From assembly GCA_903842505.1 (NCBI GenBank), contig CAIMMI010000243.1, forward strand, positions 1 through 59,247: 59,247 nucleotides of DNA, written 5' to 3'. Shown piece by piece: positions 1,034 to 31,818 of the stretch; within the stretch, counting starts at the first letter, position 1, and every line of letters begins with the position of its first letter. The notes under the pieces were generated by a model. The model was not told where the DNA came from and did no database searches. It was given only the letters and a program-made list of their open reading frames with translations. This DNA comes from an uncultured Verrucomicrobiota bacterium. GTDB lineage: Bacteria; Verrucomicrobiota; Verrucomicrobiia; Limisphaerales; UBA9464. The translations under genes and the position numbers were made by a program.

Positions 1034-2005
1034 ATGGGTGTTTTGCTGGTCCTGAGTGATGTCCATCGGGCGGGGGCGATGGAGCAGGGTCGGCGTGGGT
1101 TTGATTCGCGGGCAGTGGCGAATCCGTTCCTGCGGACTTTTCAGCGGGGGTATCGGCGGTACGTGTGGATGGATGATCCGATGGCGCACAATCACCTGCT
1201 GGAGGCGATCGTGCGTCGGGTGCCGGATCCGGCGTGGGTGGTGGCCAATGGGGACTTCACGCTGGATACGGGTTTTGTCGGGGTGAGTGAGGAAGGGGCT
1301 TTCGAAAGTGCGTCGGAAGCGATCGGGATCCTGCGTCGGGCCTATGGGGGACGATTGCGCTGCACGATGGGCGACCATGACATTGGGAAGAAGAGTTTCA
1401 TCGGGGACTCGGGCGGGGTGCGGCGGCGGAGTCTGGAGCGGTGTGAATCGGACCTGGGTATTCCGCGGTTGTGGCACGAGGACTTTCCGGGATGGCGATG
1501 GATCGGGGTGACGTCGACGCTGGCGGCGTGGCCGGTGTTTCGTCCGGAGACGCCGGAGGAGGAGGTGGGGTGGTGGCAGGAGAATCATGTGCGGCATCTG
1601 GAGGACATCGATCGGTTGTTCCGGGAAGCGACGGATGCGGGGATGCGGACGTTGTTGTTCTGTCATGATCCGACGGCGTTGCCGTTCCTGCGTGGGTTGC
1701 CGGGGGTGGCGGCGGCGTTGCCTGGGATGGGTGGGACGGTGATCGGGCATCTGCACACGCGGTGGGTGCTGCGTGTGGGGCGGGTGCTGGCGGGGGTGCC
1801 GAAGGTTTCGTGGGCGGGACATTCCATCCGGCGATACACGGCGGCCTTGAATGAAGCGGGATGCTGGCGCGAGTTTCGGGTGACGCTGTGTCCGTCGCCG
1901 ACGGGGATCCAGTTGCTGAAAGACGGCGGGTATCTGACGTCGGAGTGGTCGGCGTCGGGGCCGCAGGTTTCCTGGAAGGCGCACGGGCTGCCGTGGTCGG
2001 GGTAG
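1034..2005 (+). CDS. calcineurin-like metallophosphoesterase
   Basis: This 323-residue protein shows the metallophosphoesterase motifs in order: SDVH near the N-terminus (D-x-H), ANGDFT (GD), MGDHDIG (a GNHD variant with Asp in place of Asn), CHDPTAL (metal-binding His) and GHLHT (GHxH). Such enzymes hydrolyse phosphoester bonds with a dinuclear metal centre; the substrate cannot be read here. There is no signal peptide, so it is probably cytoplasmic. The frame is open to an ATG at 962, but that extension is encoded by the intergenic repeat, so I start at 1034, just before the first motif. The next gene follows after 15 nt and is probably cotranscribed. Confidence 0.85.
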   Translation: MGVLLVLSDVHRAGAMEQGRRGFDSRAVANPFLRTFQRGYRRYVWMDDPMAHNHLLEAIVRRVPDPAWVVANGDFTLDTGFVGVSEEGAFESASEAIGILRRAYGGRLRCTMGDHDIGKKSFIGDSGGVRRRSLERCESDLGIPRLWHEDFPGWRWIGVTSTLAAWPVFRPETPEEEVGWWQENHVRHLEDIDRLFREATDAGMRTLLFCHDPTALPFLRGLPGVAAALPGMGGTVIGHLHTRWVLRVGRVLAGVPKVSWAGHSIRRYTAALNEAGCWREFRVTLCPSPTGIQLLKDGGYLTSEWSASGPQVSWKAHGLPWSG

Positions 2006-2020
2006 GGAAGGAACGAACGC

Positions 2021-3724
2021 ATGAACATCGAACGACGCTGGGCGGGTGGTGGGTGGGTTGGAGCGACGCTGACCGCGTGGTTGCTGGTCGTGTGTGCCCT
2101 GGGACGCTTGTGCGGCGCGGAGGTCTCGGAGTCCGCCGGGGCGACCCGGGAATTGGCGGCGGTTCTGTTCTTGGATGTGGGGAATCCGGACTGTGCCGGG
2201 CTGGAACAGGAGTTGGAGTCCTTTGCGAAGGCGCGCGGGCTGCGCCTGGAAATTTCGGTGAAGCACGCTCCGGCGGTGGTTGAGCGGATCGGGGTGCACG
2301 AGGCGTTGGAGGCGGCCCGGGCGGCGGGGAAGTTCCGGGAGATGCAGTCGGCGCTCTTCCGGGATCCGGGAGTGCGAGGGAGCGGGTTGGTCCGGTTGGC
2401 CGGTGAAGTGGGGCTCGACGTGGCGGCATTCGAGTCGGCGATGGACAATCGCGTGCATCGTCGCGTGGTGATGCGGGACCTGGCGGAAGCGCGGGGACTG
2501 GGAGTGCAGACGACGCCGGTGCTGTTTGCGAATGGCGCGCGCATGGAAGGCGGCGAGGCGATCCGCAAGGCGTTGCGGACGCCGCCTCCGAAGCCGCCCC
2601 CGACGTGGTCGGAGATGAAGGTGGAGTTGCTGGAACTCGACCTCCGTGGCGCGCCGTCGCGCGGGCCGGCGGCGGCGCCGGTGACGATCATCGAGTTCAC
2701 GGATTTCCGGTGCGGGTTCTGTCGGATCCATTCGCGGACCTTGTCCGAATTGGAGGTGGCGTTCCCGGGGAAGGTGCGTCGGGTGTTCAAGAACTACCCG
2801 TTGGGGCGCGAGGCGGAAGCGTTGCTGCCGCATCTGGCGGGGATGGCGGCGGTGGAGCAGGGGAAATTCTGGGAGCTTCACCATTCGATCATGAGCCGTC
2901 CGTTGGAAGGGGTGGAAGACCTGCTGGAGCGGGCGAGGGCACTGGGGTTGGAGACGAACCGACTGGCGCGTCGATGGGCGGAAGGGGAAGTGGCGGATTG
3001 GATCGAGCGGGATGGGGAGGAAGGCCAGCGGCTGGGAATCCAGGCGACGCCGACCACGTTCATCCATGGTCGTCGGGTGGTGGGGCGGCAATCGATCGAG
3101 ACCCTGAAGGGTTATGCGCGGGAGGCGCTGGGGCTGGGGGCCGAGGCGGGAGCTGGGGCGGGGGTGGGTGGGGTGTCGGGGTTGGATCCGGAAAGCACGA
3201 GCCTGGGGCCGAAGGACGGGGCGGTGTACGTCGAGGTGTTCGTGGATCTGGCGGAGAAGGCGAGCGGGCGGTTGCTCGAGCAGGTGCGGGAGTTTGCGCG
3301 GGAACGGCCAGCGGTGCGGGTCGAGTTCCGGAGTGTGGTGCGGACGAATGGGGCGGCGTCGATGGTGTTGCAGGAATCCGCGCTGGCGGCGGCGGAGCAG
3401 GGTCGCTTCTGGGAATGGTGCGGGGTGTTGGCGTGGGACGAGGGCGTGCCTGGGGCGGAGCGGATGGCGGAACTGGCGCGGGGGTTGGGGATGGATCCGG
3501 CGAAGATCGCGCAGTCCATGGCGGAACATCGACATCGCGGGAGGATCGAGGCGGACACGGCGGAGGCGCTGGAGCGGGGTGTGCTGGGAGGGACGGTGGT
3601 GATGAACGGAACCGTGTTCCGTGGGGAGCCGACATTGGAGAACCTGGCACGGCACATGGATGAGCATGCGTGCTGCGGGAAGGCGGCGGACTTCCAGCGG
3701 CCGAAGGGGTTGCCGGGGAGGTGA
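2021..3724 (+). CDS. exported protein with three tandem DsbA/thioredoxin-like domains
   Basis: The protein has 567 residues and starts after a good ribosome binding site (GGAAGGA). A hydrophobic N-terminal segment (about 9-28) suggests export. Three DsbA-like units follow. Unit 1 (about 46-195) has NPDC where a redox CxxC is expected, keeping only the second Cys, plus a cis-Pro loop (QTTPVLF). Unit 2 (about 220-370) has an intact CGFC at about 231-234 and ATPTTF. Unit 3 (about 400-556) has no Cys at that place (EKAS). Only unit 2 looks redox-competent. The C-terminus holds an extra Cys pair (HACCGK). It probably acts in the periplasm on disulfides of exported proteins; the cysteine-rich ceramidase 150 bp downstream is a candidate client by position only. 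Confidence 0.82.
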   Translation: MNIERRWAGGGWVGATLTAWLLVVCALGRLCGAEVSESAGATRELAAVLFLDVGNPDCAGLEQELESFAKARGLRLEISVKHAPAVVERIGVHEALEAARAAGKFREMQSALFRDPGVRGSGLVRLAGEVGLDVAAFESAMDNRVHRRVVMRDLAEARGLGVQTTPVLFANGARMEGGEAIRKALRTPPPKPPPTWSEMKVELLELDLRGAPSRGPAAAPVTIIEFTDFRCGFCRIHSRTLSELEVAFPGKVRRVFKNYPLGREAEALLPHLAGMAAVEQGKFWELHHSIMSRPLEGVEDLLERARALGLETNRLARRWAEGEVADWIERDGEEGQRLGIQATPTTFIHGRRVVGRQSIETLKGYAREALGLGAEAGAGAGVGGVSGLDPESTSLGPKDGAVYVEVFVDLAEKASGRLLEQVREFARERPAVRVEFRSVVRTNGAASMVLQESALAAAEQGRFWEWCGVLAWDEGVPGAERMAELARGLGMDPAKIAQSMAEHRHRGRIEADTAEALERGVLGGTVVMNGTVFRGEPTLENLARHMDEHACCGKAADFQRPKGLPGR

Positions 3725-3731
3725 GTCGGAG

Positions 3732-3832
3732 TCCCAAGTTTCAAGATTCAAGTTTCAAGGCCGGCTCCGGCTTCAAACTTGAAACTGAAAACTTCTCGCC
3801 CCACCCCACCTTGCCCCATCGGCCCAGAACGG
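3732..3832. repeat. dispersed intergenic repeat, copy B (imperfect inverted arms)
   Basis: The pair TTTCAAGATTCAAGTTTCAAG and TTCAAACTTGAAACTGAAAAC faces each other across a GGCCGGCTCCGG centre (about 3737-3791), which would fold into a long hairpin. It is followed by CTTCTCGCCCCACC (3793-3806), a partial copy of the block seen at 35286 and 58186. Confidence 0.75.
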
Positions 3833-3871
3833 TCTTGCGGGAGGGAGTGAAGATTCGCGACGCTGCGCAGC

Positions 3872-6800
3872 ATGTGGGGACTCAGAAGTCGGGCTTTTCG
3901 CGGGTGCCGGGTGATGACGTTGGCGTTGGCGTTGGGACTGGTATTCGGGTGGGCGGAGCACGGGTTGACGCAGGGGTTCCGGATCACGGGCATTGAGGCC
4001 AAGGGTGGACGGGTGGCGATCCGTCATGAGTCGAGCGGTGGGGTGCATCACCTGCTCCAGCGGGTGGACCTGCGGACGGGGGCGCAGACGGTGGTGGGTG
4101 TGGCGGTGGGAGTTCCGGGGACGGGAGTCCTGGAGGATGCGAAGCCGCCGGCGGAGACCGGGTATTATCGGGTGACGCGAGTGTCGAATGATTCGCCGGG
4201 GGACGCGGACGGGGATGGGATCGACGACCTGTATGAAGCGGGACGGCCGGGATACAATCCGCTGGATCCGAAGGATGCGTTGCAGGTGTCGGCGCAGACG
4301 GGACGGACGCGGCTGGAGGACTACCTGAGGGACGAGTCGAACCTCGCATTGTATCCGTATCTGGTGGGTCGCGGGATCCACGACGTGACGGGGCCGGCGG
4401 CGGACGGTGGCATGATGGGTTATGCGGAAGGGGATCAGCGATCGGAAGGCATTCATGATCGCCAGTGGGCCCGGGCGTTCATTGCGGCGGGTCGTGGGGA
4501 TGGGGCGCCGCGGGTGGTGTTCGTGGTGGTGGACGCGGGGCAGGTCTTCCACTCGATCACGCAGGGCGTGCACGACCGGTTGCAAGCGGACGACGAGCTG
4601 AAGAAGTTCTATTCGTATGCGAACATCGTGTTGAGCGCGACGCACACGCACGGCGGGGCGGGTGGTCATTCGCATCATGTGCTGTACAACGCGACGATCG
4701 GTGGGTTTGCGTGGCAGACGCAGGATGCGTTGGTGCACGGGATCTACATGGCGATCAAGAAGGCGCACCGGAACCTGGCGCCGGGTCGGATCCTGATGAC
4801 CGAAGGGAAGCTCGAGAACGCGAACGAGAACCGGCAGGCGGAGGGATTCCTGCAGAATCCCGAGGTGGCGAATCCGGCGCTCAGCAATCCGTTTGGGAAG
4901 GACAACCGTGACACGACGATGTTCTGCCTGCGGTTCGAGCATTCCAACCGGCGTGAGATCGCGATGTTCAACTGGTTCCCGGTGCATGGCGTTTCGTTCT
5001 CGAAGCAGAACCGCCTTTTGACTGGGGACAACAAGGGACAGGCGGCCTACCTCTTCGAGCAGGCGAAGGGGGCCTTGTATCCGGGGCATGGGCGGTATGC
5101 TTCGTCGTCGGGATTTGTCGCAGGGTTCGCGAACTCGAATCCGGGCGACCTGACGGCAAACTTGCGGAACAGCGAGCCGGGGGGGTGGCCGGAGAATGGG
5201 AAGGACGATGAGAAGCGCGCGACGACGATCGGGCGGCGTCAGTACGAGAAGGCGATGTCGTTGTACCAGGGAGCAACGACGCGGGTGTCGGGTCCGGTGG
5301 ATCACCGGCACCTGTATGTCGACATGACGTCGGTGGAGGTGAATCCGCCGAGCCTCTTTCCGTACAACCAACCGGAGGTTGGGTTCGGCGGGGACAAGGA
5401 TTTGCCGCCGTGGTCGACGTTCATCGGGGCCCTGGGCGTGGACTTTGCGCGGGGGACTCTGGATGGGGAGGCGATGTCGCAGGAGTTGATCGATGCGTTC
5501 CGGGTGGCGAACGGGATCGTGGTGGATCCGATCACGGACGAGTTCGAGCGGCGGCATTATCCGAAGGAAGTGCTGTTGACGACGGGGACGCTGGCGCTCG
5601 AGGGGTTGACGTGGACGCCGCAGACGTTGCCGGTGTCGATCCTGCGGATCGGGAACTTTGCGATCCTGGCGGTGCCTGCGGAGTTCACGGGGATCGCGGG
5701 CTACCGGTTGCGGCAGACGGTGGAAGCAATCCTGCCGCCGGGGACGCGGACGGTGCTGGCGGGGTTGGCGAACGACTATTCCGGGTATGTGACGACGTAC
5801 GAGGAGTACCTGCACGAGACGCGGAGTGCGGGAGGGTTGCCGGTGCAGAGCTATGAGTCGGCGTCGACGCAGTTCGGGGCGTTCACGCTGGCGGCTTACC
5901 AGACCAAGTTTTCGGAGATGGCGACGGCGATGGTGAAGGGGAGCGGGGTGGCGTCGGTGGCGATGCCGCGGACGCACGAGCCTGCGGTGATCTTGCTGCG
6001 GGCGATCGATCCGATCCTGGACCTTCCGCCCTTGCCGCAGGCTGGGCCGGCGGAGTTGAAGGGGAAGGCGGGGTGTCCGCCGGGACAGTTCTGGGACATC
6101 GGGACGGGCTATTGCTGGAGTTGCCCGGCGGGTTACAACCGGACGGTCTTCAGCGTGGAGGGTGGATCGGCATGCGAGCAACCGGCGCGATCCGAGTTCA
6201 GTGGTGCGACCAAGCATGGTCAACCGGGGTGCGGTCCGGGCCAGTTCTTTGACCTGGGAACGGGTTACTGCTGGCAGTGTCCTGCGGGGTACAACCGGAC
6301 GATCTTCCCGGTGACTGGGGGAAATGCCTGCGAGAAGCCGGCGAGTTCCGTGTTCGCGGGGGCGACGCGGCACGGGAATGCGGGTTGTGGCCCGGGTCAG
6401 TTCTTCGACATTTCCACGGGTTACTGCTGGAGTTGTCCGTCGGGTTACAATCGGACGATCTTCAGTGTGGAGGGTGGGACGGCTTGCGAGCGTCCGGCCT
6501 ACTCCGAGTTCGTGGTGGCGCAGAGCGCGAACGGGACGGGATTTTTCGGGACGGATTGTCCGAGCGGTTACGTCTTCGACTTCATCATCGGGCGGTGTTT
6601 CCGCTGTCCGTCGGGGAGCGCGAAGTTCGTGTTCCGGGCGTGGAACGATCCGGCCGGCGCTTGCGAGCGGGTGGTGCCGGCGGCGTATTCGGGCGCGACC
6701 AAGTTCAACGGACTGTGTCCTTCGGGCCAGTTCTGGGACATCGGCACGGGAGGCTGCTGGAGTTGTCCTGGGGGGTACAACCGGACGGTGTTTGCGGTGA

Positions 6801-7549
6801 CGGCGGGCAACGCGTGCGAGCAGGTGATCCCGGCGGCGGTCTCGGGGGCGACGCGGTTCAACGGGCTGTGTCCGCCCGGGCAGTTCTGGGACTTGCTGAC
6901 GGGCGCGTGCTGGAGTTGTCCGGCGAACTTCAACCGGACCATTTTCACGGTGGCTGGGTCGACGGCGTGCGAGCGCGTGTTCGCGGCAGTGCTGGGGGCG
7001 GCTTCGAAGCACGGTCCGTATGCGTGCGAGGCGCGCGGGGCAGGGTGGTTCCTGGACGTTGGGCGAAACGAGTGTTGGTCGTGCAACGGATGGTTGCGGA
7101 ACCTGAATCCGGTGACGAGTCCGGAGGCTTGCACCGGGCCGCTGGCGGCGTTCGGGGATCTGGTGATCGATCCGGTCTGGCTGCGCCCGGTCGGGGAGCG
7201 CGTGTACGGGATTGGCCAGCGGGTCCAGGTGGGTTTCTGGGGTGGGCATCCGAAGAACGTGTTCGGGACGGTGGCGGCGCGGCGGGTGGATCAACTTCCG
7301 ACGTTCCTGGAGGTGCAGCGTTGGACCGGAGCGCTGTGGGAGACGGTTCGGACGGATGCGGATTGGGACACGACCTTCCGGTGGGAGCGGGTGGGGTTGG
7401 CGGCGTCGAAGGTGACGATCGACTGGTTGCCGGGGCCGGGCACGGATCCGGGGACCTATCGGATCCTTCATCGCGGGTTTGCGCTCAAGGCGGGCGGGTT
7501 GTTGGAGGCGTATCAGGGTGAGTCCCCGACGTTCGAGGTGCGGCGATGA
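3872..7549 (+). CDS. neutral/alkaline ceramidase with seven inserted Cys-rich repeats
   Basis: This 1225-residue exported protein has a signal peptide (hydrophobic MTLALALGLVFGW, about 15-27) and one Ca-binding-type DADGDGIDDLYE motif near 110. The catalytic domain (about 160-715) carries the neutral ceramidase signatures: VGRGIHDVTGP, the zinc motif ATHTHGGAGG (His about 258 and 260), WFPVHG (His about 371), NSNPGDLTAN with the presumed nucleophile Ser at about 421, PAEFTGIAG (Glu about 602) and LANDYSGYVTTYEEY. This family cleaves the N-acyl bond of ceramides. The ceramidase C-terminal beta domain (about 1090-1225) is displaced by seven repeats (about 733-1088), each with four Cys (C-P-x-G-Q-F-x-D...C-W-S-C-P...A-C). 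An alternative start is the ATG at 3914. The stop overlaps the next start (ATGA). Confidence 0.88.
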   Translation: MWGLRSRAFRGCRVMTLALALGLVFGWAEHGLTQGFRITGIEAKGGRVAIRHESSGGVHHLLQRVDLRTGAQTVVGVAVGVPGTGVLEDAKPPAETGYYRVTRVSNDSPGDADGDGIDDLYEAGRPGYNPLDPKDALQVSAQTGRTRLEDYLRDESNLALYPYLVGRGIHDVTGPAADGGMMGYAEGDQRSEGIHDRQWARAFIAAGRGDGAPRVVFVVVDAGQVFHSITQGVHDRLQADDELKKFYSYANIVLSATHTHGGAGGHSHHVLYNATIGGFAWQTQDALVHGIYMAIKKAHRNLAPGRILMTEGKLENANENRQAEGFLQNPEVANPALSNPFGKDNRDTTMFCLRFEHSNRREIAMFNWFPVHGVSFSKQNRLLTGDNKGQAAYLFEQAKGALYPGHGRYASSSGFVAGFANSNPGDLTANLRNSEPGGWPENGKDDEKRATTIGRRQYEKAMSLYQGATTRVSGPVDHRHLYVDMTSVEVNPPSLFPYNQPEVGFGGDKDLPPWSTFIGALGVDFARGTLDGEAMSQELIDAFRVANGIVVDPITDEFERRHYPKEVLLTTGTLALEGLTWTPQTLPVSILRIGNFAILAVPAEFTGIAGYRLRQTVEAILPPGTRTVLAGLANDYSGYVTTYEEYLHETRSAGGLPVQSYESASTQFGAFTLAAYQTKFSEMATAMVKGSGVASVAMPRTHEPAVILLRAIDPILDLPPLPQAGPAELKGKAGCPPGQFWDIGTGYCWSCPAGYNRTVFSVEGGSACEQPARSEFSGATKHGQPGCGPGQFFDLGTGYCWQCPAGYNRTIFPVTGGNACEKPASSVFAGATRHGNAGCGPGQFFDISTGYCWSCPSGYNRTIFSVEGGTACERPAYSEFVVAQSANGTGFFGTDCPSGYVFDFIIGRCFRCPSGSAKFVFRAWNDPAGACERVVPAAYSGATKFNGLCPSGQFWDIGTGGCWSCPGGYNRTVFAVTAGNACEQVIPAAVSGATRFNGLCPPGQFWDLLTGACWSCPANFNRTIFTVAGSTACERVFAAVLGAASKHGPYACEARGAGWFLDVGRNECWSCNGWLRNLNPVTSPEACTGPLAAFGDLVIDPVWLRPVGERVYGIGQRVQVGFWGGHPKNVFGTVAARRVDQLPTFLEVQRWTGALWETVRTDADWDTTFRWERVGLAASKVTIDWLPGPGTDPGTYRILHRGFALKAGGLLEAYQGESPTFEVRR

Positions 7550-8133
7550 GGTGGACGCGCTGGATGAAGCGGGCGGTTCCGTGGGTTGCGGTGTTGTCCG
7601 TTTGCGGGTGGGTTCGGACGGGGATGCTGGCGCACCCGGGTCATGATCCAGGCAATGCGCCGGTGCCGACGGAGGTGGTGGCGGTGGTGTTCTCGGATTT
7701 CCACGAACCCGCCTGCGGGAAGGTGAACCGGTTGCTGGATCAGTTGGCGGAGGCTCGGCACCTGCAATTGCAACGGGTGTTCAAGCATGCGCCCGTGAAG
7801 GTGGAGGCGTGGCCGGCGCATGAGGCGGTGCAGGCGGCCGGGGCGCAGGGGCGCTTCCTGGGGATGCATGATGCGCTGTTCCAGCGGGAGCGGGCGGGAG
7901 GCGACACGTTGGAGACGATTGCCCGGGAACTTGGGCTGGACGTGGAACGGTTTGCCCGGGACCTGAAGGAACATCGGTTTGAGACCGGTGTGCGGCGGGA
8001 TTTGGTCGAGGCGCGAGCGATCGGGGTGACGACGGTTCCGACGGTGTTCCTCAATGGGGTGCGGTTGGACGGGATCGAACAGTTGACGCAGTACGTGGAG
8101 AAGGCCGGGAAACCAGCGGCGGAAGGGAAGTGA
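7546..8133 (+). CDS. DsbA-like thioredoxin-fold protein with ExxC active site
   Basis: The 195-residue protein begins on the ATGA that ends the ceramidase gene, so the two are translationally coupled. A hydrophobic stretch at about 9-29 suggests export. The fold follows DsbA-like oxidoreductases: VVFSDF strand, helical insertion, then VTTVPTVFLNG with the cis-Pro. At the place of CPxC it reads HEPACG (about 53-58): the nucleophilic first Cys is Glu, while Pro and the second Cys remain. Classical thiol-disulfide exchange is therefore unlikely unless the lone Cys acts by itself; it may be a chaperone or binding relative. It resembles unit 1 of the triple-domain protein at 2021. Confidence 0.75.
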   Translation: MRWTRWMKRAVPWVAVLSVCGWVRTGMLAHPGHDPGNAPVPTEVVAVVFSDFHEPACGKVNRLLDQLAEARHLQLQRVFKHAPVKVEAWPAHEAVQAAGAQGRFLGMHDALFQRERAGGDTLETIARELGLDVERFARDLKEHRFETGVRRDLVEARAIGVTTVPTVFLNGVRLDGIEQLTQYVEKAGKPAAEGK

Positions 8134-18634: not shown

Positions 18635-21600
18635 GTGAGCAGCACGACGACAACCGGCGCGGTATTTGAACCGCGGTTGCCCCACGCCTTTGGCCAGTAC
18701 GAGTTGCTGGAAGAGTTGGCGCGCGGCGGCATGGGGATCATCTACAAGGCCCGGCAGGCCGGTTTGAACCGCTTGTGCGCCGTGAAGATGGTGCACCGGG
18801 CGGGCGGTTTGGCGGGGACGGATTCCGAGCGGGCGCTGGAATCGGAAGCGGCGGCAGCGGCGAGCCTGTCGCATCCGAACATCGTGCGGATCTACGAGGT
18901 GGGGCGGGAGCAGGGACAGTGGTTCTTCTCGATGGAGTACATTCCCGGGGAGGAGTTGGGGGCCTGGGCGAGGTCGCGGGTGCTGGATACAGCGAGCGTG
19001 GCGCGGTTGGTTCGGGAGTTGGCCGGGGCGGTGGAGTATGCGCATTCCCAAGGGATCTGGCATCATGACCTGAAGCCCGCGAACGTGCTGGTGGATGCGG
19101 AAGGGCGGCTCCGGTTGATGGATTTCGGGTTGGCGCGGCGGAGGGATTTCCGGACGCAGCCGGATGCGTCGGCGGGAGTGGGTTCACCGAACTACCTGGC
19201 CCCAGAGCAGGCGTCGGACCGGTATGGCGAGCCGCGGGCGGTGACGGACGTTTTTGGGTTGGGCGGGATCCTTTACCACCTGTTGACGGACCGGCCGCCG
19301 TTCCAGGGAGAGACGGTGGCGGAGACCTTGAAGGCGGTTCTGGAGTTGGATCCCGTGCGGCCGGGGATGCTGCGGACCGGGGTGCCGGCGGATCTGGAGG
19401 CGATCTGCCTGAAGTGCCTGGAGAAGCGTCCGTCGCGCCGGTATGCGGCGGTGGGTGACGTGGTGCTGGACCTCGACCGTTTCCTCAGGGACGAGCCGAT
19501 TGCGGCGAGGAAGGCTTCGGTGGCGGGTGGGTGGTTGAGGTGGGGATTGAAGAAGCCTTGGTGGCCGCTGTTGGGTGCGGCGGCGGCGTTCGGGGTCGCC
19601 GTGTTCCTGAGGAGGAACCAGGATCGGATCGCCGGGTTGGAAGCCACGGCGAACCAAGCGCGGGTGGCCCGGGATTCGGCCCGGGTTGCCGAGGCCGAAG
19701 CGCGGAGGAACCTGTATGCCGGCGACATGGCGTTGGCGTTCGCAGCGAATGCCGATGGGCGCGCCGTGCGGGTCCGGGAGATCCTGGATCGGCAGCGGCC
19801 GGCGCCCGGGCAGGCTGACCCGCGGGGCTGGGAATGGAGATTCCTGGATGGCTTGGTGCGAAGTGATTCGGTCGGGGTGCTCGGGCGGTTGGACGGGGAC
19901 GTCCAACGGTTGCAGATGCATCCGGATGGGAGACGGTTGGTCGCCGCGGACAATGCGGGCGCGCTGGTGGAATGGGAATTGCCGACCGGACGCGAGTTGC
20001 GTCGGCGGGTGATGAGGCCGGCGGGGTTATCGGGGTTGGTGATGTCGTCGGATGGCCGGTGGCTGGCGTTGAACGATCGTTTGCCGGGAGCGACGAACAC
20101 CTGGGTCCACATCCTGAATTCGGCGACGTGGGCAACGAACCGGAGCTGGGCGGTGCCGGGGTGGGTGGGGCCGCGGGTTGTATCGGGTGACGGGCGGACC
20201 CTGTGGCTGACGGGGAGGGATCTGCTGGTGGCATTGTCGGTGCCCACGGGTGCGGTGCGGGAGGTGCCGCTGGCAGCGCAGGCCCAGCCGGCTGCGGTAG
20301 CCCTGAGCCCGGATGACCAGTGGCTGGTGGTTTCGCATGGACCCAAGGCGGTGGCATGGGTGCCGACCGACGGCCCGGCCGACCTTTCGATCCGTCGTTT
20401 CGAAGCGGCTGTGAAGACGGGCGTCGGGGCGGAACCGGAGGTGCTTTGCCTCGCGTTTTCACCGGATGGCCGGTGGTTGCTGAGCGGGTGCTCGGATGGA
20501 CGGGTACGGGTGTGGGATGCCGAAAGCCGGGAGGTCGTGGCGACGTGGGAAGGCCATTCCGGGGCGGTCCAGGCATTGCGCTTTCATCCGGACGGATCCC
20601 GGGTCGTTTCGGTCGGTCGCGATCCGGTGGGCTGGGTGCGTGAATTTCCGTCCGGTCGTGAGGTGGGCCGGATCCGTGGGTTGCAGGGGTTCACCGCGGA
20701 CGCGGCCTGGTCCGGGGACGAGGTGGTGACGGCGGGTGGGGACCGTGCGGTCGAGCGCTGGAAACCTTCGGCTGGAATGGGAATCACGGCGTTGACGAAT
20801 GTTCCGCCGTCGACTTTCGGTGCGAGCCTGCTGCCAGATGGAGCGCACGCGATGGTGGCGGGCGCGACCGGGGTGCAGATCTGGACGTTGCCTTCCGGCG
20901 AAGTGTTGCAGCAGTTGCCTGCGGATTCGGATGCGCTGGCGTCGGCCTTCGTCCATCAGCCGAAGGCGAGCCACGGGGTGGCTGCCCGGTATTGGGTTGG
21001 GGGACGGATCGGGGTGAGGTCGCTCGAGTTGGAGGGACGGACGACGTCCGTGGAGGAGGTGGGTTGGATTCCGGTGCCGAGGTTTTCCGGTGCGGCGGAT
21101 CTGGTATTTGACCCGGCGGGGAGCCAGTTGGCGGTGGCGGATACGGCCAATGGGGTGAGGGTCTACGGGGTGGAGCCGTTGGAGTTGAAGCACCGGTTCG
21201 AGATGCCGCTGGCGCGGACGGCGGTGTTCTCGCCGGACGGAAAGCGGTTGGCGGCGTTGTCGGAGGGGCGTCTCGCGGTGTGGGACCTGGGCGTGGAGCA
21301 TCCTTCCACGAAGGAGCGCGTGATTCCCAATGTGCAGGCGGTGGGATTCTCGCCCAAGGGAGATCAACTGATGGCGACAACCCTGGAGGGACGGGTGCTG
21401 GTGCTGGACTCGAAGGACCCGGGCAGGAAACCGTTGGCGGTGCTGGCGACGATGCCGGGCGGCTTCCTGAGTGTGGCGATGTCACGGGACGGGTCGCGGG
21501 TGGTGGCGGGATCGATGGCTGGGGCCGTGGTGATCTGGGATCTGGCGACACGGCGGGAGTTGGGATTGCTGCCGATCGGAACTTCCCCGGTTTACTCCCT

Positions 21601-21688
21601 GCGCTTCGCGGACGACGAGACGCTGGTGGTGGCGAGCGGGGAAGGGGTGCGGATGCTGTCGACCGGGCGGAAGTCGGGAAGGGAGTGA
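18635..21688 (+). CDS. membrane-anchored Ser/Thr protein kinase with WD40 repeats (non-RD)
   Basis: The 1017-residue protein starts at GTG after GGGGAG. The kinase domain (about 20-290) has the glycine loop ARGGMGIIYKA, the lysine in AVKMV, the catalytic loop HHDLKPAN (about 143-150), DFGLARR (about 163) and YLAPEQA. The usual HRD is HHD, so this is a non-RD kinase. A single transmembrane segment (about 308-327) is followed by a short helical linker and then WD40-like repeats (about 420-1010) with units such as LAFSPDGRWLLSGCSDGRVRVWD. It probably senses or scaffolds at the envelope and phosphorylates an unknown target. A closely linked phosphatase is not present. Confidence 0.9.
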   Translation: MSSTTTTGAVFEPRLPHAFGQYELLEELARGGMGIIYKARQAGLNRLCAVKMVHRAGGLAGTDSERALESEAAAAASLSHPNIVRIYEVGREQGQWFFSMEYIPGEELGAWARSRVLDTASVARLVRELAGAVEYAHSQGIWHHDLKPANVLVDAEGRLRLMDFGLARRRDFRTQPDASAGVGSPNYLAPEQASDRYGEPRAVTDVFGLGGILYHLLTDRPPFQGETVAETLKAVLELDPVRPGMLRTGVPADLEAICLKCLEKRPSRRYAAVGDVVLDLDRFLRDEPIAARKASVAGGWLRWGLKKPWWPLLGAAAAFGVAVFLRRNQDRIAGLEATANQARVARDSARVAEAEARRNLYAGDMALAFAANADGRAVRVREILDRQRPAPGQADPRGWEWRFLDGLVRSDSVGVLGRLDGDVQRLQMHPDGRRLVAADNAGALVEWELPTGRELRRRVMRPAGLSGLVMSSDGRWLALNDRLPGATNTWVHILNSATWATNRSWAVPGWVGPRVVSGDGRTLWLTGRDLLVALSVPTGAVREVPLAAQAQPAAVALSPDDQWLVVSHGPKAVAWVPTDGPADLSIRRFEAAVKTGVGAEPEVLCLAFSPDGRWLLSGCSDGRVRVWDAESREVVATWEGHSGAVQALRFHPDGSRVVSVGRDPVGWVREFPSGREVGRIRGLQGFTADAAWSGDEVVTAGGDRAVERWKPSAGMGITALTNVPPSTFGASLLPDGAHAMVAGATGVQIWTLPSGEVLQQLPADSDALASAFVHQPKASHGVAARYWVGGRIGVRSLELEGRTTSVEEVGWIPVPRFSGAADLVFDPAGSQLAVADTANGVRVYGVEPLELKHRFEMPLARTAVFSPDGKRLAALSEGRLAVWDLGVEHPSTKERVIPNVQAVGFSPKGDQLMATTLEGRVLVLDSKDPGRKPLAVLATMPGGFLSVAMSRDGSRVVAGSMAGAVVIWDLATRRELGLLPIGTSPVYSLRFADDETLVVASGEGVRMLSTGRKSGRE

Positions 21689-23053: not shown

Positions 23054-23093
23054 GATCTCCCGGTTCAGAGAACGTGCGGATCCGGTTTTGGCC

Positions 23094-26000
23094 ATGCATA
23101 CCCGCCTGAACCCAATGCGCCCAGTGGCCCGCCAGTTGGCGGCCTGGTTGTTCCTCCTGATCGCGTCCGTTACCCGCCTTCGAGGCGACGTCATCGACAC
23201 GATCACGAGCCTGACGCTCACCAACCATACCGGCTATGTGCTGGCGTCGGACTCGTTGAACGCGCTCGCGGGTTACACGCGGGACACGATCGACGTGCTG
23301 TCGGTGGTGAAATACGCGCCGTCGAAGCCGAGCACGAACGACGTCTGGGACTACACCTACCAGTTCCGGTTGCTGGACCCGCTGGGGGTGGCGCAGCCGT
23401 TGTTGGTGGGTGGAGGGACCAACACGGTGCTGAGCGAATCCATCGTGGTGAGCCGGACGAGCCCAGTCATCTTGAACCCGGATGTCGCCCGCGTTTCGCG
23501 CCTGACGCCGGCGGGACGGTTGGATCCCTACCAGGATTACCGGGTTGAGCTGAAGTTGCTGCGGCGGCCGAATGGAAGCTTGATCCGGCCGGGGCTGACC
23601 GGGGACGAGGCAACGACAACGGGGGCGCGTTACTTCCATTTTCCTTCCCTGGTGGCGGCGGACTCGGACGTGAACGTGATTCCGGTGCTGGAGAGCGGGG
23701 CGTGGACGCGGACTTACCTGCTCACGGGTGGCGGGTCGAAGAGCAACCTGCAGGCGCAGGTGAACTTCAAGGCGTACCGATGGGACCGGTGGAACCTCTC
23801 GGCGGTGACCAATGACGTCACCTTCAGCTTTGGACTGGAATTGCGGGATGCGGTGACGGACGCCGTGATCCCGCTTGCGGACAACCTCGTCACGGTGGTG
23901 AAGCCGGTTGGGACCTACGTGAACAGCAATCCGATGACACCGTGGGTCGGGAACCTGAGTCATACCGTCGAGTTGTCGCCGTTGACCCAGTTGGATCCGA
24001 TCAACAAGACCTACAAGCTGACGGTGACGATCGGGCATTTCCCGACCCCCGCCTCGATCCTGCCGCTGGAAGGCAACGCGATCCCCCTGGCCAATCAGCG
24101 GTTGCTGCACCTGAACGGGCGGTTGCTGTTCGGTGCGATCGAGACTCGGTACACCTCGATTGCCAACAATCCGGTGCAAGGTTTGATCAGCGCGGGAACG
24201 ATGCCGACGACGGTGGCGGTGGATGGGCAGAGCGGCTTTCTGGCGGGATCGCCCGGTCACACGTACGGGGATGGAACGGCGCTGAGCGTGCGGGTTTCGT
24301 CGGATGGAACGGCGCGGTTGGCGGCCGGGTCTGTTGCGCTGACGGGGCCGAGTCCGGACGAGGAGTACATCCAGAACATCCGGGTGATCCGGGGTGTGGT
24401 GACGCTGGACACGTTGGGAGCCGTGGCGGACGTGGGGGTGTATCATCCCGCTGGGTTCAGTTACGCGTTCGGGACGGCGGGCAAGCTCACGTTGGGCGCG
24501 TCGTTCTTCCAGAACATCCGGTTGGGGCAGGACCTGCATCCCCTGGCAGATCCGGAGTTGGCCTCGTTTGCATCGGAAGTGTGGGCCGTCGAGGAGACCA
24601 AGCCGGTCTGGATGAAGATGACCGGCATCAAGTGGTTGGTGAACCTGGGTCGCTTCGAGTGGACGCCGAGCGGCGAGGCTGTGTATGTGCGCCGGGACGA
24701 GTACGTGCGGTTGGCGGCGTCGCCTGCGGCGTCGGGGAAGATCAAGGCCTCCAACGAGCGCTACTATGAATCGGTCGACCGGGTTCTCAGCCCGAAGGTG
24801 ATCGTTGAACCGAACGACAAGGGTGCGGCGCTGATGACGGTGGAGTTTGGGTTCAAGCCGGGCGGGATGCTGCCCCATTTCCCGCAGGGTTCGATCCTGG
24901 CGTGGGCAGCGGGTGGGGTTCAGAAGGTCGCGAGGGACGAGGTGGACCCGACCCGGAGCTTCTTGCCGGGAGCGGCGGTGCTGGGGACCTATGCGCGGGA
25001 CTGCCAGGAAATCGACTGCGGCACGACCGTCGGGGTGGACAATCTGGTGTTGAAGCCGGTGAACAATGAAATGCGCTTCACGCCGGATGGCGGGTTGCAC
25101 GGCATTGGATCGCTGACCGTGCCCAAGAGTGTTTCGTGGGGTTGGATCGCCGAGCCTTCGATCCAGAAATACGCGCATCAGACCGACGTCTTCGACGAGG
25201 CGAGCTTCCTGATGTCGGGATTCTTCCTGCGGGGGGATCGGGCGACGAACACGAGTCTCTTCCTGAAGCCTGGCACGATCCTGTTCACCGGGTTCACGGT
25301 TTCGAACGAGATCCTGACGCGGGTGGAGCGGCCGAAGAACGCAGGATATGCGACGGGGTCGGCGGACTATGCCGGGATGAACTTCCGGGTGTCGACCGAC
25401 GGCGGCAAGAGGGCGCAGAGCGTGTTGGCGGGGAAGTCGACTGGGGCCTATCCGCTGACGGGACGGAGCAAGTACTACGTGCGCCCGGGTGGTGTGAGTG
25501 GAATCCACGAGGCGGTGTTTGGGCAGTTTCCGGAGGAGTTCGAGTTGTACGGATACCCGGTGAACTTCGACAACTTCGGGTTGTCGTTCCTCGACACGGA
25601 GAACAAGGAGTCGCGGACGCAGGGTTACCTGTTGGTGAAGGGGCCTTCGAACTTTCGGCAGAACTTCGAGGAGTTGAAGTTCAACTGTCTGGGAGCGCTG
25701 ACGGACGCGAAGGTGCCGGCGGCGGAGGCGTCGGTGGCGAAGGTGTTGGAATACTGGACGGCGGATTTCTACACGCGGGCGATCCAGTTCGACCGGAAGG
25801 GTTCGAGCCAGTGTGATCCGGGCAAGGGCGTCCTGACGCTGGCAGTGGATGCCTTCGCGGTGCATGTGGAAGGGACGCTGCATGGCGTGCTGGGCTTCCA
25901 TCCTTCGGGAAACCTGGTGACCCGGGCGGACTGTGAGGCGCCGGATGGGCCGCTGGACCTGCCGTTTGATTCGCGGCTCAAGATGCCGTCGAACTTCAAG

Positions 26001-28505
26001 CTGAAGGGGCCGAAGGCCGAGAAGTACAACGTGGTGCCGGTCTCGGATGCCTACCTGAGCAACTGGGACAACCGGGCGCAGAATCCGCGGGGTGTTGGGT
26101 TCCTGAACTTTGCAGCGAAGCTGGATGTCCCGTTCTTCGAGGACCTCCAGGTGCACGTGCACACGAGTGCCAACCGGGAACAGACGAATGCGCCGTTGTA
26201 CATGATGGGGGGGTGGCCGACGAAGGGCTATCAGGTCGCGGGCAAGGACTTCTTCAACGACAAGACGTTTGATTCCGACAACAAGGGTTTCCCGGGCGAC
26301 GTGAACGTCGTGGAGTACGAGGAAGGAAAGGAATCGCTGGGCGACAAGTACCACGTGCGAGCCATCCGGAACTGGTTGGACATCGTGCAACTGGACGCGC
26401 CGTTGAAGTGGTCGTCCTCGGGGCGGGCGTTCACGGGGTACGAGCAGGTGAAGACCGATCTGGTGGTGATCTCGGCCCATTACGAGCCGAAGTACCTGAG
26501 CGCGATGAACGCGGAGTTGGCCTTCGGGGTCCAGTACGAGGGCGTGCCGCAGATCAACATCGCGAACCTTGCCTTCGATCAGTTGGGAGGTTTGCAGGAC
26601 GCCTTCCAGGACGTGGTGCAGGCGCAGGTGATCGACAAGGGATTCGATGCGTTGAACTCGCTGTTGGTGGCGGGGATCCAGGACGTGATGGACCCGGTGA
26701 TGGATGCGTTGCTGGAGCAACCGATCGATCTCCTCTTCCAGGAACTTTCCAGCAAGTTCGACCCGGGAACGAAGCGGTTCACGATCGATAACACCGAGGT
26801 TCGGGACATCCTGAAGAAGTACTGCGGGACGGCGGGCGGATTGCCGAACAACTTCAGGAGCCTGCTGGAGACGGGATTGCTCGGGGATCTCACGAACCCG
26901 AACGGTCTGGTGGGCCAGATCGACGGCCGGTTGCAGGACGCGGAGTCCGCGCTCCTGCAGATCGAAGGGTTGCTGGCGGAGACCGGGAACGGGAACCGGC
27001 AGTTGGTGACGAAGCTGTTGAAGCAGTTGGTGCAGACGTTGGTTTCGCAGGCGACGGATTCACCGGTGGCGCAGTCGTTGGCCGGCATGGCGGCGGACAT
27101 CGCGGGCGGAGCGATCGATCCCAAGCTGAATGAATTCCTCCAGGCGGCCGACCCGACGCTGGACGAAATCCGGAATGTGATCGCGAGCGTGCGGGGCGTG
27201 TTCACCCAGGTGCGGACGGCGCTGGGTGACGGTCAGGAATTCCTCGTCGAGTTGAAGGCGAAGATGACCGATCTGGTGGCGAGCAACGAGGTGTTGAACG
27301 CCATGACGAGGACCTGTCAGGACATCGATGCGTATCTGTTCCAGTTCGAGGTGGGGGTCGACAATCCGTTCACGCCCGCGAATGCGGCGGCGTTCAAGCA
27401 GTTTGTCCGGCAACGGTTGGGCGACCGGTTGGTGGGTTCCGCAATTCCAGCGGCCTTCACATCGATCCTGAAGCAACGGCTCTACGACCTGGAGTCTGCC
27501 GTGCACGAGGCGGTGGACTCGGTGTTCCAGCAGGTCAACACCATCATCCGGGACACGTTGAGCGACGCGTTGTCGGATATCGACAACTCGATCAACGGGC
27601 TGCTCGGGTCGGTTTCCAGCACGATGGGGGCGGGCCGGATCAACGGGTATGCGCACATCGTGGGTGACTCGCTGAAGGAGTTGCGGTTGGACATCTACGC
27701 GCAGTTCAAGGTGCCCAGCGAGATGGAGTTCAATGCGTACGTCCTGATCCGGGAGTTGGACTCGGAGAGCGAGGAAAACGGCTGCATCGAGAAGGGTGAG
27801 AAGGCGACCGAGGTCCGGATCGGCGCGAAGGACGTGGACCTGAGCTTCATCTCGACGGACCTGACGGCGTCGGTAGAGGCGAAGTTCAGTTTCAAGACGG
27901 TCCCGGGATTCGCGATCATGGGGGTTGGGGCGGGGATCGAACTGACGGGTGAGTTGAGTTTCCAGACGTTCAAGATCACCTACCTGGGGGCCCAGATGGC
28001 GTTTGGTGCCGATGAAAACTACTTCAGCGCGGCGTGTGCGTTGGAGTTCAACAGCTACAAGGCCAAGGGCGGAATCTACTTTGGGAAGACCTGTACGCTG
28101 GATCCGTTCTTCTGGGATCCGGACGTGAAGGAGGTCATCGGCAAACCGCCGTTCACCGGGGTGTATGCTTACGGTGAGGTGTGGATCCCGATCTCCGAAG
28201 CGCTGCTGGGGATTCCGGCGACGTGCCTCTTCGAGATTTCCGCGGGTGTGGGCCTGGGTGCCGGGTACTTCGTTGAGGGCCCGACCTACGTCGGCAAGAT
28301 GCTGCTGGGCTGTTACGGCTCCGTGCTGTGCCTCGCATCGCTGGAAGGCGAGCTGAAGCTCGTGGGCGTCAAGAACGCCGACGGGTTGCAGTTGAAGGGG
28401 GGCGGTCGCCTCGAAGGCTGCCTTGGACCCTGTCCGTTCTGCATCTGCGCCGACGCGCATGTCGACGTGACCTACAAGAACGGGGAATGGGACGTGTCCT
28501 ACTAA
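23094..28505 (+). CDS. giant secreted protein of unknown function (first of three)
   Basis: The 1803-residue protein has a signal peptide (QLAAWLFLLIASVTRLRG, about 15-32). I do not recognise a family. Residues about 35-1160 are beta-rich with few repeats and scattered aromatic strands. Residues about 1165-1510 change to long amphipathic helices (for example LVTKLLKQLVQTLVSQ and RLYDLESAVHEAVDSVFQQV). Residues about 1515-1803 return to glycine-rich alternating strands (FKTVPGFAIMGVGAGIEL, YKAKGGIYFG) and hold a cysteine cluster (GCLGPCPFCICADAH). The C-terminus could be a membrane-inserting or barrel-like region, but this is inference. The frame also opens at TTG 23088. It precedes two further giant exported proteins on the same strand. 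Confidence 0.75.
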   Translation: MHTRLNPMRPVARQLAAWLFLLIASVTRLRGDVIDTITSLTLTNHTGYVLASDSLNALAGYTRDTIDVLSVVKYAPSKPSTNDVWDYTYQFRLLDPLGVAQPLLVGGGTNTVLSESIVVSRTSPVILNPDVARVSRLTPAGRLDPYQDYRVELKLLRRPNGSLIRPGLTGDEATTTGARYFHFPSLVAADSDVNVIPVLESGAWTRTYLLTGGGSKSNLQAQVNFKAYRWDRWNLSAVTNDVTFSFGLELRDAVTDAVIPLADNLVTVVKPVGTYVNSNPMTPWVGNLSHTVELSPLTQLDPINKTYKLTVTIGHFPTPASILPLEGNAIPLANQRLLHLNGRLLFGAIETRYTSIANNPVQGLISAGTMPTTVAVDGQSGFLAGSPGHTYGDGTALSVRVSSDGTARLAAGSVALTGPSPDEEYIQNIRVIRGVVTLDTLGAVADVGVYHPAGFSYAFGTAGKLTLGASFFQNIRLGQDLHPLADPELASFASEVWAVEETKPVWMKMTGIKWLVNLGRFEWTPSGEAVYVRRDEYVRLAASPAASGKIKASNERYYESVDRVLSPKVIVEPNDKGAALMTVEFGFKPGGMLPHFPQGSILAWAAGGVQKVARDEVDPTRSFLPGAAVLGTYARDCQEIDCGTTVGVDNLVLKPVNNEMRFTPDGGLHGIGSLTVPKSVSWGWIAEPSIQKYAHQTDVFDEASFLMSGFFLRGDRATNTSLFLKPGTILFTGFTVSNEILTRVERPKNAGYATGSADYAGMNFRVSTDGGKRAQSVLAGKSTGAYPLTGRSKYYVRPGGVSGIHEAVFGQFPEEFELYGYPVNFDNFGLSFLDTENKESRTQGYLLVKGPSNFRQNFEELKFNCLGALTDAKVPAAEASVAKVLEYWTADFYTRAIQFDRKGSSQCDPGKGVLTLAVDAFAVHVEGTLHGVLGFHPSGNLVTRADCEAPDGPLDLPFDSRLKMPSNFKLKGPKAEKYNVVPVSDAYLSNWDNRAQNPRGVGFLNFAAKLDVPFFEDLQVHVHTSANREQTNAPLYMMGGWPTKGYQVAGKDFFNDKTFDSDNKGFPGDVNVVEYEEGKESLGDKYHVRAIRNWLDIVQLDAPLKWSSSGRAFTGYEQVKTDLVVISAHYEPKYLSAMNAELAFGVQYEGVPQINIANLAFDQLGGLQDAFQDVVQAQVIDKGFDALNSLLVAGIQDVMDPVMDALLEQPIDLLFQELSSKFDPGTKRFTIDNTEVRDILKKYCGTAGGLPNNFRSLLETGLLGDLTNPNGLVGQIDGRLQDAESALLQIEGLLAETGNGNRQLVTKLLKQLVQTLVSQATDSPVAQSLAGMAADIAGGAIDPKLNEFLQAADPTLDEIRNVIASVRGVFTQVRTALGDGQEFLVELKAKMTDLVASNEVLNAMTRTCQDIDAYLFQFEVGVDNPFTPANAAAFKQFVRQRLGDRLVGSAIPAAFTSILKQRLYDLESAVHEAVDSVFQQVNTIIRDTLSDALSDIDNSINGLLGSVSSTMGAGRINGYAHIVGDSLKELRLDIYAQFKVPSEMEFNAYVLIRELDSESEENGCIEKGEKATEVRIGAKDVDLSFISTDLTASVEAKFSFKTVPGFAIMGVGAGIELTGELSFQTFKITYLGAQMAFGADENYFSAACALEFNSYKAKGGIYFGKTCTLDPFFWDPDVKEVIGKPPFTGVYAYGEVWIPISEALLGIPATCLFEISAGVGLGAGYFVEGPTYVGKMLLGCYGSVLCLASLEGELKLVGVKNADGLQLKGGGRLEGCLGPCPFCICADAHVDVTYKNGEWDVSY

Positions 28506-28554
28506 GCCGATGAACCCATCCCGAACCGAAACCATTTTCCGGAGATTTGAACCG

Positions 28555-31500: not shown

Positions 31501-31818
31501 CTTTACCGATTCCAGGTCGCCAGCCCGGCGCTGCCCCAGGTCTCGGGTGACCTGGTGCAGGTGTCGCCCCTGATGAAGGACATCGCCGCGGTCACGACCA
31601 ACGTCTCGAACATTGGGGTGTTCACGCGGGTGGACGATCCCTTCATCCGCGTCACCGGGTTGGGCCAGGTTGCCGGCAACAAGGAGCGCAGCCTGGTGCT
31701 GCTCGACACGACCCCGGTGATCCTTGGGGCCAATTACGCCTATCTGCTTGTCCGCTTTGACGACGCGGGTGAGGTCATCAACGTCATTCCGACTACGCTG
31801 GTGGAGGTCACGCCATGA
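28555..31818 (+). CDS. giant secreted protein with fibronectin-III-like segments (second of three)
   Basis: The 1087-residue protein starts with a clear signal peptide (MKPLLLAIALLLAVASPALR); I prefer this ATG over one at 28510 because of it. Several segments have the fibronectin-III feel, for example APRIPAVENHYVFQG...LKVTWRPVPSTNDDSGISGYYVYRW and TFWYTIRAVDLS (about 370-490), and again REYRLYRRVDYG later. No catalytic motif is visible. It lies 49 nt after the first giant gene and its stop overlaps the third gene's start (ATGA), so all three are probably made together. A scaffold, adhesin or matrix role is plausible but unproven. Confidence 0.75.
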   Translation: MKPLLLAIALLLAVASPALRVQGQVLEDTVFTLGTVTRDQTNRNWAYLVLQPTDSGLLADRKLAVYVKSGDTTSATPYERQAILTLQTDPLAITALLQRAGSIGEDLAALDGRVSNLFAALIPSGTPTLAERLSVVIRGSLDKPQHYQKLVQLARFHPAVAMCLGFGHAEQIGNGKYTFEVRDFDLGANADRGVLGRVTVESGNPIILPAPGRPVESKDPSGKGHLNVKLRWATSPELRRLSLLSYGFNVYRVPKFVADSNPGLFLVAAPNRLQFLAQVKTNPAIGRVTQLPVLASRNFDDSPAANPNSVLNPTNRVAFVADDGGLSGGTYVFQDGQQFFYYVTARDLLGRDGVVSQGTLVTICDRMPPDAPRIPAVENHYVFQGGAPKQHLKVTWRPVPSTNDDSGISGYYVYRWTAPAQIPQNANQPLLNRISALIPHVPGQPTYTFIDSGAGAPGVPADVNKTFWYTIRAVDLSSCGGNLSANSAPAFGVLRDREGPAAPNGGGPAILCCDPLLVGGKAFDVTPNDKVDPEMVDFDLVCTRRDTGIAFADFWFSFNGGSSSNFVGRVYFAETATEVTRRLSYPRRQFDGNTLFVASARSGDFQGDVSVIDIVRVGGLPERTRVRRVEFVATTRCQRTQAVAGSVGRKGCDVHQPQPPAAVGDPVTPPEDGIIVVLPLTPQTREYRLYRRVDYGPLTLIKQGQTNYDSVTNVVVQIPDEDMPANASVLCYYGQLFDEHGNGSPMTQLGDCITVTQPTAKPLLSALEPLGGDAAPRMVIRWFCSPAGLERFKVQVAVLGESPPNSMGAVLSTNQASGIGLQPLNPYLPFPLWKLVDFGEYVTPLIGPNFGDGASFQLTVPVVQGKRYYVKVTGVVKAGGAGKTSNTETFLWQPPPEEVGPKVPWPQRPLPSLALHHPGVTPVRLKLSDFDGLGINIGDLRRADAREIKTGEGGTISMLEGVVKPESFIYTNGQGNSLFPAVLYRFQVASPALPQVSGDLVQVSPLMKDIAAVTTNVSNIGVFTRVDDPFIRVTGLGQVAGNKERSLVLLDTTPVILGANYAYLLVRFDDAGEVINVIPTTLVEVTP

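Follow-up and report, generated by a model that had tools for sequence, protein, structure and literature searches.

Neutral ceramidases form a well-studied family of enzymes that cleave ceramide, a lipid mainly of eukaryotes. In the crystallised enzymes of Pseudomonas aeruginosa (2zws) and human (ASAH2, 4wgk), about 30-45 residues lie between the aligned parts of the catalytic and the C-terminal domain, and Cys repeats are absent. A ceramidase encoded on a Kitasatospora plasmid (L125:1402-4470), matching at 39% over the catalytic part of the protein described here, likewise has a short linker to its HPKN-containing C-terminal domain and no repeats; this domain join was read by eye, MAFFT having aligned the C-terminal part to repeats 1-2. 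The DNA analysed (the window) is a stretch of 59,247 nucleotides from an uncultured Verrucomicrobiota bacterium (contig CAIMMI010000243.1; order Limisphaerales), in which an open reading frame at 3872-7549 (+ strand, ATG start) encodes a neutral ceramidase of 1225 residues. Both domains are shared with 2zws and 4wgk, but about 400 residues separate the aligned parts, and the intervening linker carries seven repeats with four Cys each. The crystallised chains also lack a counterpart of residues 1-161.

The favoured reading, to which a probability of roughly one half is assigned, is that of a secreted ceramidase whose array of disulfide modules holds or targets the catalytic domain to a lipid surface and which relies for its folding on a DsbA-like partner of its own. 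The module is accessory to an already known enzyme family; what is added is a new architecture. In the open-licence literature, no title or abstract start describing a ceramidase with Cys repeats was found, although a description elsewhere is possible.

Domains, catalytic residues and repeat units

Both ceramidase domains scored above their Pfam cut-offs, in order and within one protein: Ceramidase_alk (PF04734) at residues 163-677 (4358..5902; E 1.8e-129, 433.1 bits against a cut-off of 32.1) and Ceramidse_alk_C (PF17048) at residues 1093-1223 (7148..7540; E 1.5e-25, 90.3 bits against 30.5; E 1.6e-26 in the search of the order genomes). The two-domain assignment made in the original prediction, which had been read from the letters of this DNA without database searches, thus held. 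The PF17048 profile was aligned at positions 46-169 only, its first 45 positions being unmatched where the repeats lie. Since the cut-off of the NCBIfam equivalog NF041649 was not reached (336 of 1200 bits), the protein is classed as a Pfam family member rather than a strict equivalog. Alignment to 2zws and 4wgk covered both domains and skipped the insert. The four zinc ligands of the family, which we take to be two His, one Glu and one Tyr (His97, His204, Glu411 and Tyr448 in the Pseudomonas enzyme), are kept in the alignment with 2zws and 4wgk, with residues identical to those of the Pseudomonas protein. Ligands and catalytic Arg region are thus conserved, and the motifs around the ligands are also present in the five orthologues examined, the Glu motif of G012 reading PSEFT.

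The predicted Ser region (NSNPGDL) is present as a motif, but the family Ser itself, presumably equivalent to Pseudomonas Ser274 and human Ser354, is replaced by Thr (NPGDLTANL) in the window ceramidase and in the five orthologues examined. Thr also occupies this position in the repeat-less Kitasatospora ceramidase, so that the variant occurs beyond the repeat-bearing group. An inactive enzyme was considered on account of the changed Ser and dropped, given the Kitasatospora Thr and the role of human Ser354 in positioning an Arg, as stated in a review (PMC6952831). Judged from its domains and ligands, the protein would hydrolyse ceramide.

The N-terminus resembles a signal peptide by eye and suggests export of the ceramidase. 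It is followed by a region of ~125 residues with DADGDGIDDLYE (TSP3-like, by eye), both together spanning 3872..4355, where no Pfam family matched at E<=1. The codon-position G+C of the frame (0.62/0.52/0.82), together with the ratio of non-synonymous to synonymous substitution rates (dN/dS) given below, indicates that the frame is truly coding.

The insert occupies approximately residues 726-1095. The predicted seven four-Cys repeats with 28 Cys between the domains were confirmed by the Cys positions, the repeats starting at Cys 735, 787, 839, 896, 949, 1000 and 1052 (start-to-start spacing 51-57 residues) and the final Cys being 1087. A block of 356 residues (733-1088) contains 28 of the 30 Cys of the protein (hypergeometric P about 1e-13), the remaining two being Cys12 and Cys352. 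Repeats 1 (6074..6229) and 2 (6230..6385) are of type A, as is repeat 3 (6386..6556), whose spacer is longer by 5 residues; repeats 5 (6716..6868) and 6 (6869..7024) are of type B, and all five share the pattern C-x12-C-x2-C-x16-C and the core GQF[WF]D..TG.CW[SQ]CP...NRT. Repeat 4 (6557..6715; variant V, GYVFD...CFRCP) follows C-x12-C-x2-C-x18-C and repeat 7 (7025..7132; terminal variant T, GWFLD...ECWSCNGW) follows C-x15-C-x2-C-x15-C with the core CWSCN. The QFxD...CWSCP core originally ascribed to every repeat therefore applies to five of the seven (with CWQCP in repeat 2) and fails in repeats 4 and 7. Repeat 7 scored weakly with the first profile (E 2.6e-4) and strongly with model A2, in which it is included (E 9.2e-17). 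Among 13 compared units, G4, D8 and P18 are invariant, and Q5, F6, T11, G12, W15, R23, T24 and E35 are kept at >=90%. A pairing of C1 with C2 and of C3 with C4 inside each unit is offered as a guess.

Membership in a known repeat family was rejected, all Pfam, NCBIfam and PDB-sequence matches being below threshold. The best of the Pfam matches was CBM_14/peritrophin-A, to which the repeat block aligned at E 0.0015 and a Streptomyces protein (see below) at E 0.035, over 16-17 residues; with 19.1 bits over 17 residues the block stayed below the model's cut-off of 22.1 bits, and the CBM_14 pattern, which we take to comprise six Cys, differs from the four Cys per repeat in number and spacing. WD40 matches were dismissed, the common element in the PDB-sequence alignments displayed being a short D-x-x-T-G-x-C string. 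Rusticalin-type Cys repeats are described as tandem and attached to prokaryote-type enzyme domains, with a spacing of Cx6Cx6-7Cx8Cx7CC over 33-34 residues, unlike the window repeat (PMC6339383, PMC7379824); as an identity they were ruled out on that spacing.

An AlphaFold2 model of repeats 1-3, built from an 18-row alignment of sequences from 4 genomes, shows a short beta-hairpin per unit at a predicted local distance difference test (pLDDT) score of 68 and a predicted template modelling (TM) score of 0.38. In a Foldseek search of this model against the PDB, nine of the ten top-ranked chains belonged to Cys-rich extracellular proteins (TNFR2, HVEM, Meckelin or ELAPOR1), though no score was significant. 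Tumour necrosis factor receptor (TNFR) and ephrin-receptor domains (Ephrin_rec_like, TNFR_ELAPOR1) are likewise built from small tandem Cys-rich modules, the window repeats having four Cys each. Membership in these families was not supported (Pfam E 0.24-0.63, best Foldseek E 0.2), VIA-align returning no Z of 2 or more for the repeat model, and the modelled resemblance is taken as a lead only. In a viral structure library, the single match below 1e-3 (8.4e-4) was an unnamed protein with a TM score of 0.22.

Distribution, copy number and selection

Searches covered 313-320 genomes of the order and a phylum sample of 387, and all genome counts include the window's own genome. The PF17048 domain was found in 7 of 320 order genomes, all seven with repeats (between 5 and 9 of them in the complete arrays), and in 1 of 387 genomes of the phylum sample, which was the window's own. 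The repeat ceramidase is thus not a single-genome oddity: the same insertion, the search for which had been proposed with the original prediction, occurs in ceramidase genes of six further genomes. The statement that known ceramidases lack it holds for the P. aeruginosa, human and Kitasatospora proteins, but within the order the insertion is routine, being present in every PF17048-positive genome, so that the first refutation named with the original prediction applies by half. The second, cysteines that sit in buried loops of the catalytic domain, is not borne out: neither Pfam domain includes the block, and the number of copies ranges from 5 to 9.

With the repeat block as query, 5 of 96 relatives were positive, and among the same 96 only these five gave a full-strength catalytic match (E under 1e-90). 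A profile of the repeat matched 5 of 50 genomes of the family. At E 0.01 it matched 18 of 313 genomes of the order, comprising the seven repeat-ceramidase genomes and eleven marginal ones (short pieces matched at E 5.6e-4 to 0.0094, of which two contain stops), and at E 0.001 it matched 3 of 387 genomes of the phylum sample, comprising the window's own and two marginal ones (E 4.6e-4 and 6.7e-4); the marginal matches of both sets were attributed to chance from their length and score. A scan of public genome contigs for exact peptide patterns matched 15 stretches and yielded three relatives (pond MAG D8_MAG_00040, Umea1_bin-3761 and F1-140-MAGs082), which are labelled Verrucomicrobiales or Verrucomicrobia and probably overlap the seven loci. 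Phage records gave no tblastn match to the repeat block at E 1 and none to the catalytic part at 1e-10, two scans of viral contigs found no relative, and a phage origin was rejected on these grounds; the Streptomyces repeats described below gave one weak, chance-like match to phage records (E 0.03).

PF04734 itself matched at E 0.001 in 79 of the 96 relatives, and most among the matches listed extend over only about half of the profile, from its start, and occur in numerous frames of 450-1700 residues. These partial matches belong to a different ceramidase-domain-like family that is common in the order. One of the PF04734 matches (G021:C150:23095-23739) lies within an open reading frame of 22,671 residues, which would be a giant gene if it is genuine.

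The repeats are under purifying selection of the same strength as the catalytic domain: between the window and G006, dN/dS was 0.093 for the repeats, 0.097 for the catalytic domain, 0.111 for the C-terminal domain and 0.181 for the N-terminal part, with dS saturated in two region comparisons with G016. All aligned repeat Cys are kept (28/28 against G006, G016 and G633; 20/20 against G012). Seven repeats were counted in G006, G016 and G633, five in G012 and nine in G022, the profile giving 7 for G633 and 8 for G022 and the count of 9 coming from reading the sequence; in G634, whose contig is cut, four are visible, one of them partial. The G022 ceramidase frame is broken inside repeat 9 (L010 near 2872), the C-terminal domain resuming in another frame, possibly through an assembly error.

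In a tree of the units, the first, long-spacer, V and T units cluster by position across genomes and the others are intermingled; G016 and G022 show recent duplications. Sorting by simple patterns labelled some type B units as A and missed one G633 unit (V). The grouping in the tree suggests that the array is ancestral to these loci and ordered, and that its length has probably changed through internal duplication.

The repeat in a Streptomyces protein and the proposed role of the array

Of 72,556 plasmid records searched by tblastn with the repeats (E<=1), four matched. Three gave weak WD40 matches (E 0.01-0.07), and the fourth encodes a hypothetical protein of a Streptomyces sp. NBC_01343 plasmid (WP_327136241.1; E 5e-7, 33%). 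None of the five records with plasmid-borne ceramidases contained the repeat in this search. WP_327136241.1 (L042:3065-4540; 491 residues) has two units of the form C..G.F.DPR...CWSCP...PVT..ACW, which by eye precede the last part of an enzyme domain. It contains MPGSHD...DLR...YHG, presumably the motifs of phosphatidylinositol-specific phospholipases C (PI-PLC), and all 12 matches of its family to the PDB at E<=1 were PI-PLC (E 0.024 to 0.26, none significant singly). The repeat is thus as in the window ceramidase and the protein is lipid-hydrolase-like, but the enzyme is another one and the two units lie inside its domain. Two homologues match residues 4-289 of WP_327136241.1 only, and no such units appear in their alignment; one of them (L123:1483-3624) carries a C-terminal stretch like that of beta-propeller lectins (NF052348, E 2.9e-17, under the cut-off), and the other (L124) is 78% identical to it. 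Among the six annotated features of an 8.5-kb Streptomyces stretch, none is named DsbA, the hypothetical ones having been scanned in part.

Surface targeting is favoured over a plain spacer mainly because two unrelated lipid-hydrolase-like proteins carry the repeat, an argument that depends on one Streptomyces protein. On the favoured reading of a surface-targeting array, the ceramidase would be exported via its signal sequence and would then encounter the DsbA-like protein encoded beside it; the CGFC domain of the latter may oxidise the Cys pairs of each unit. Each module would be closed by disulfide bonds, probably two, and the finished array would form a compact, protease-resistant rod in the interdomain linker that presents the zinc-dependent amidase to a lipid surface, the simplest candidate for which would be a eukaryotic cell's membrane or coat, or debris. 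The array would bind something rather than only space the domains, and environmental bacteria may in this way attack eukaryotic lipids through a purpose-built disulfide array. Should lipid surfaces indeed be bound by the array, a portable targeting module would be at hand.

The strongest competitor, rated as possible though clearly behind the favoured reading, is a passive, protease-resistant disulfide stalk or spacer that sets interdomain distance or rigidity and binds nothing. It is consistent with the copy number of 5 to 9, as in length-tuned stalks, with the weak Foldseek likeness to extended TNFR-like rods, and with the Cys-rich stalk of Myxococcus TraA as an analogue (PMC12045341). Against it, the V and T units stay recognisable and in the same order in every array where they can be placed (the V unit of G633 is readable, and G634 is cut before V), several non-Cys positions of the 13 units are nearly as conserved as the Cys, beyond the obvious need of a spacer, and the position of the units before the last enzyme-domain part of the PLC-like protein makes a spacer less sensible there.

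DsbA-like neighbours and the probable state of the cysteines

The ceramidase gene is flanked on the same strand by two genes for DsbA-like proteins, each with a signal-like N-terminus by eye. The upstream gene (2021..3724) encodes a three-domain protein of 567 residues (Pfam DSBA E 5.4e-31, Thioredoxin_4 E 4.6e-30) in which a CxxC is found only in the middle domain (CGFC, about 2711-2722), together with a cis-Pro-type ATPTTF. With these motifs and a score of 44.4 bits against the PF01323 cut-off of 25.6, the middle domain qualifies as DsbA; the protein also matches NCBIfam NF041057 at E 3e-34, yet below the cut-off (118.7 of 190 bits). The downstream gene (7546..8133), whose ATG overlaps the ceramidase stop (ATGA), encodes a single-domain protein of 195 residues (Thioredoxin_4 E 2.5e-13, DSBA E 3.9e-12) in which EPAC replaces the CxxC of DsbA and which does not qualify as DsbA in this sense.

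At all seven loci a CGFC-bearing DsbA-like gene adjoins the ceramidase gene and shares its strand. Within the window's genus (two genomes), this CGFC gene is upstream and an EPAC-only protein is encoded downstream; at the other five loci the downstream gene encodes an xxxC domain fused with a CGFC domain. In the window's own genome, all four PF01323 matches at E 0.001 fall in the two flanking genes. Among 313 genomes of the order, 64 gave a DsbA match at E 1e-5, comprising 7/7 with and 57/306 without a repeat ceramidase. The contig with the ceramidase holds all such matches of G000, G006, G012, G633 and G634, 3/5 of those in G016 and 2/3 of those in G022.

Comparison of the window with the G006 contig by blastn aligned 1991-3722 (80%) and 3921-8078 (84%), besides repeat-to-repeat matches inside, and window positions 1-25000 gave no other match over 150 bases to the 20-kb stretch L092 of that genome. 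DNA homology stops at both sides of 1991..8078 (+), and the three genes (DsbA-like, repeat ceramidase, DsbA-like) form a discrete module whose surroundings differ within one genus.

These neighbours, which the original prediction had not mentioned, lend support to its guess of a disulfide module and disfavour its alternative of a metal module. The repeat Cys probably form disulfides, and the neighbour would catalyse their formation; the need to pair 28 Cys per chain correctly would account for the oxidoreductases encoded alongside. A Cys-repeat client accompanied by its own DsbA-like protein at every locus found, in a genome that gave no DsbB or VKOR match, would represent a natural client-and-catalyst pair in which dedicated disulfide formation could be studied outside the model bacteria. 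Put forward more tentatively, and at odds clearly below even, is a wider proposal: an undescribed, transferable four-Cys module, carried by unrelated lipid hydrolases (ceramidase and PI-PLC-like) of at least two phyla, would act as a binding array towards surfaces that bear lipids and are probably eukaryotic. In Verrucomicrobia-type genomes this module would travel in one compact unit with a DsbA-like protein dedicated to its folding, which would need neither DsbB nor VKOR.

Several observations weigh against the favoured reading of a partner-folded, surface-targeting array. The seven loci belong to two families of one order and are related rather than independent events, and the PI-PLC assignment of the Streptomyces protein, for which no Pfam PI-PLC model was reached, comes from one protein, weak scores and motifs presumed to be those of PI-PLC. 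The repeat has no significant family or fold match in Pfam, NCBIfam or the PDB, and the lower Foldseek ranks, in the PDB and the viral library, include adenovirus fibres and other unrelated elongated proteins. The full-length ceramidase model, at pLDDT 31, is unusable for the geometry of the array relative to the active site. At each of the seven loci, one DsbA-like domain lacks the first Cys of the CxxC (EPAC and similar), and the genome, which is 95.6% complete, gave no match to DsbB (PF02600) or VKOR (PF07884) at E 0.01; a role of the DsbA-like protein as reductase or isomerase is possible.

The close genetic coupling to thioredoxin-fold proteins, among whose sites one is a CxxC and one is crippled, together with the missing DsbB/VKOR match, would also suit a redox switch, in which the DsbA-like partners toggle the repeats between reduced and oxidised states and so control ceramidase activity. 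This is regarded as improbable, as 28 Cys, in an even number within small modules, look structural rather than regulatory. Slightly less probable still are metal-binding, zinc-ribbon-like modules: each repeat does offer four Cys including one CxxC pair, but this is the single close pair per unit, the protein is probably exported and has a DsbA-like neighbour at 7/7 loci, and zinc-binding families or structures are not among the Pfam and PDB matches. An assembly artefact, frame error or chance repeat can practically be dismissed, no support for it having been found in this genome of 362 contigs, as the block recurs in the six further genomes, three of which match named public assemblies, and dN/dS is well under 1.

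Beside the Kitasatospora ceramidase gene lies an annotated sphingomyelin phosphodiesterase gene, a pair that possibly serves a two-step degradation of sphingolipids. Elsewhere in the window, 18635-21688 encodes a eukaryote-style protein kinase fused to WD40 repeats, and three very long open reading frames follow in succession at 23088-28505, 28510-31818 and 31815-35261 (1805, 1102 and 1148 residues); the first two have no Pfam match at 1e-5, and the third contains a bacterial TSP3 repeat.

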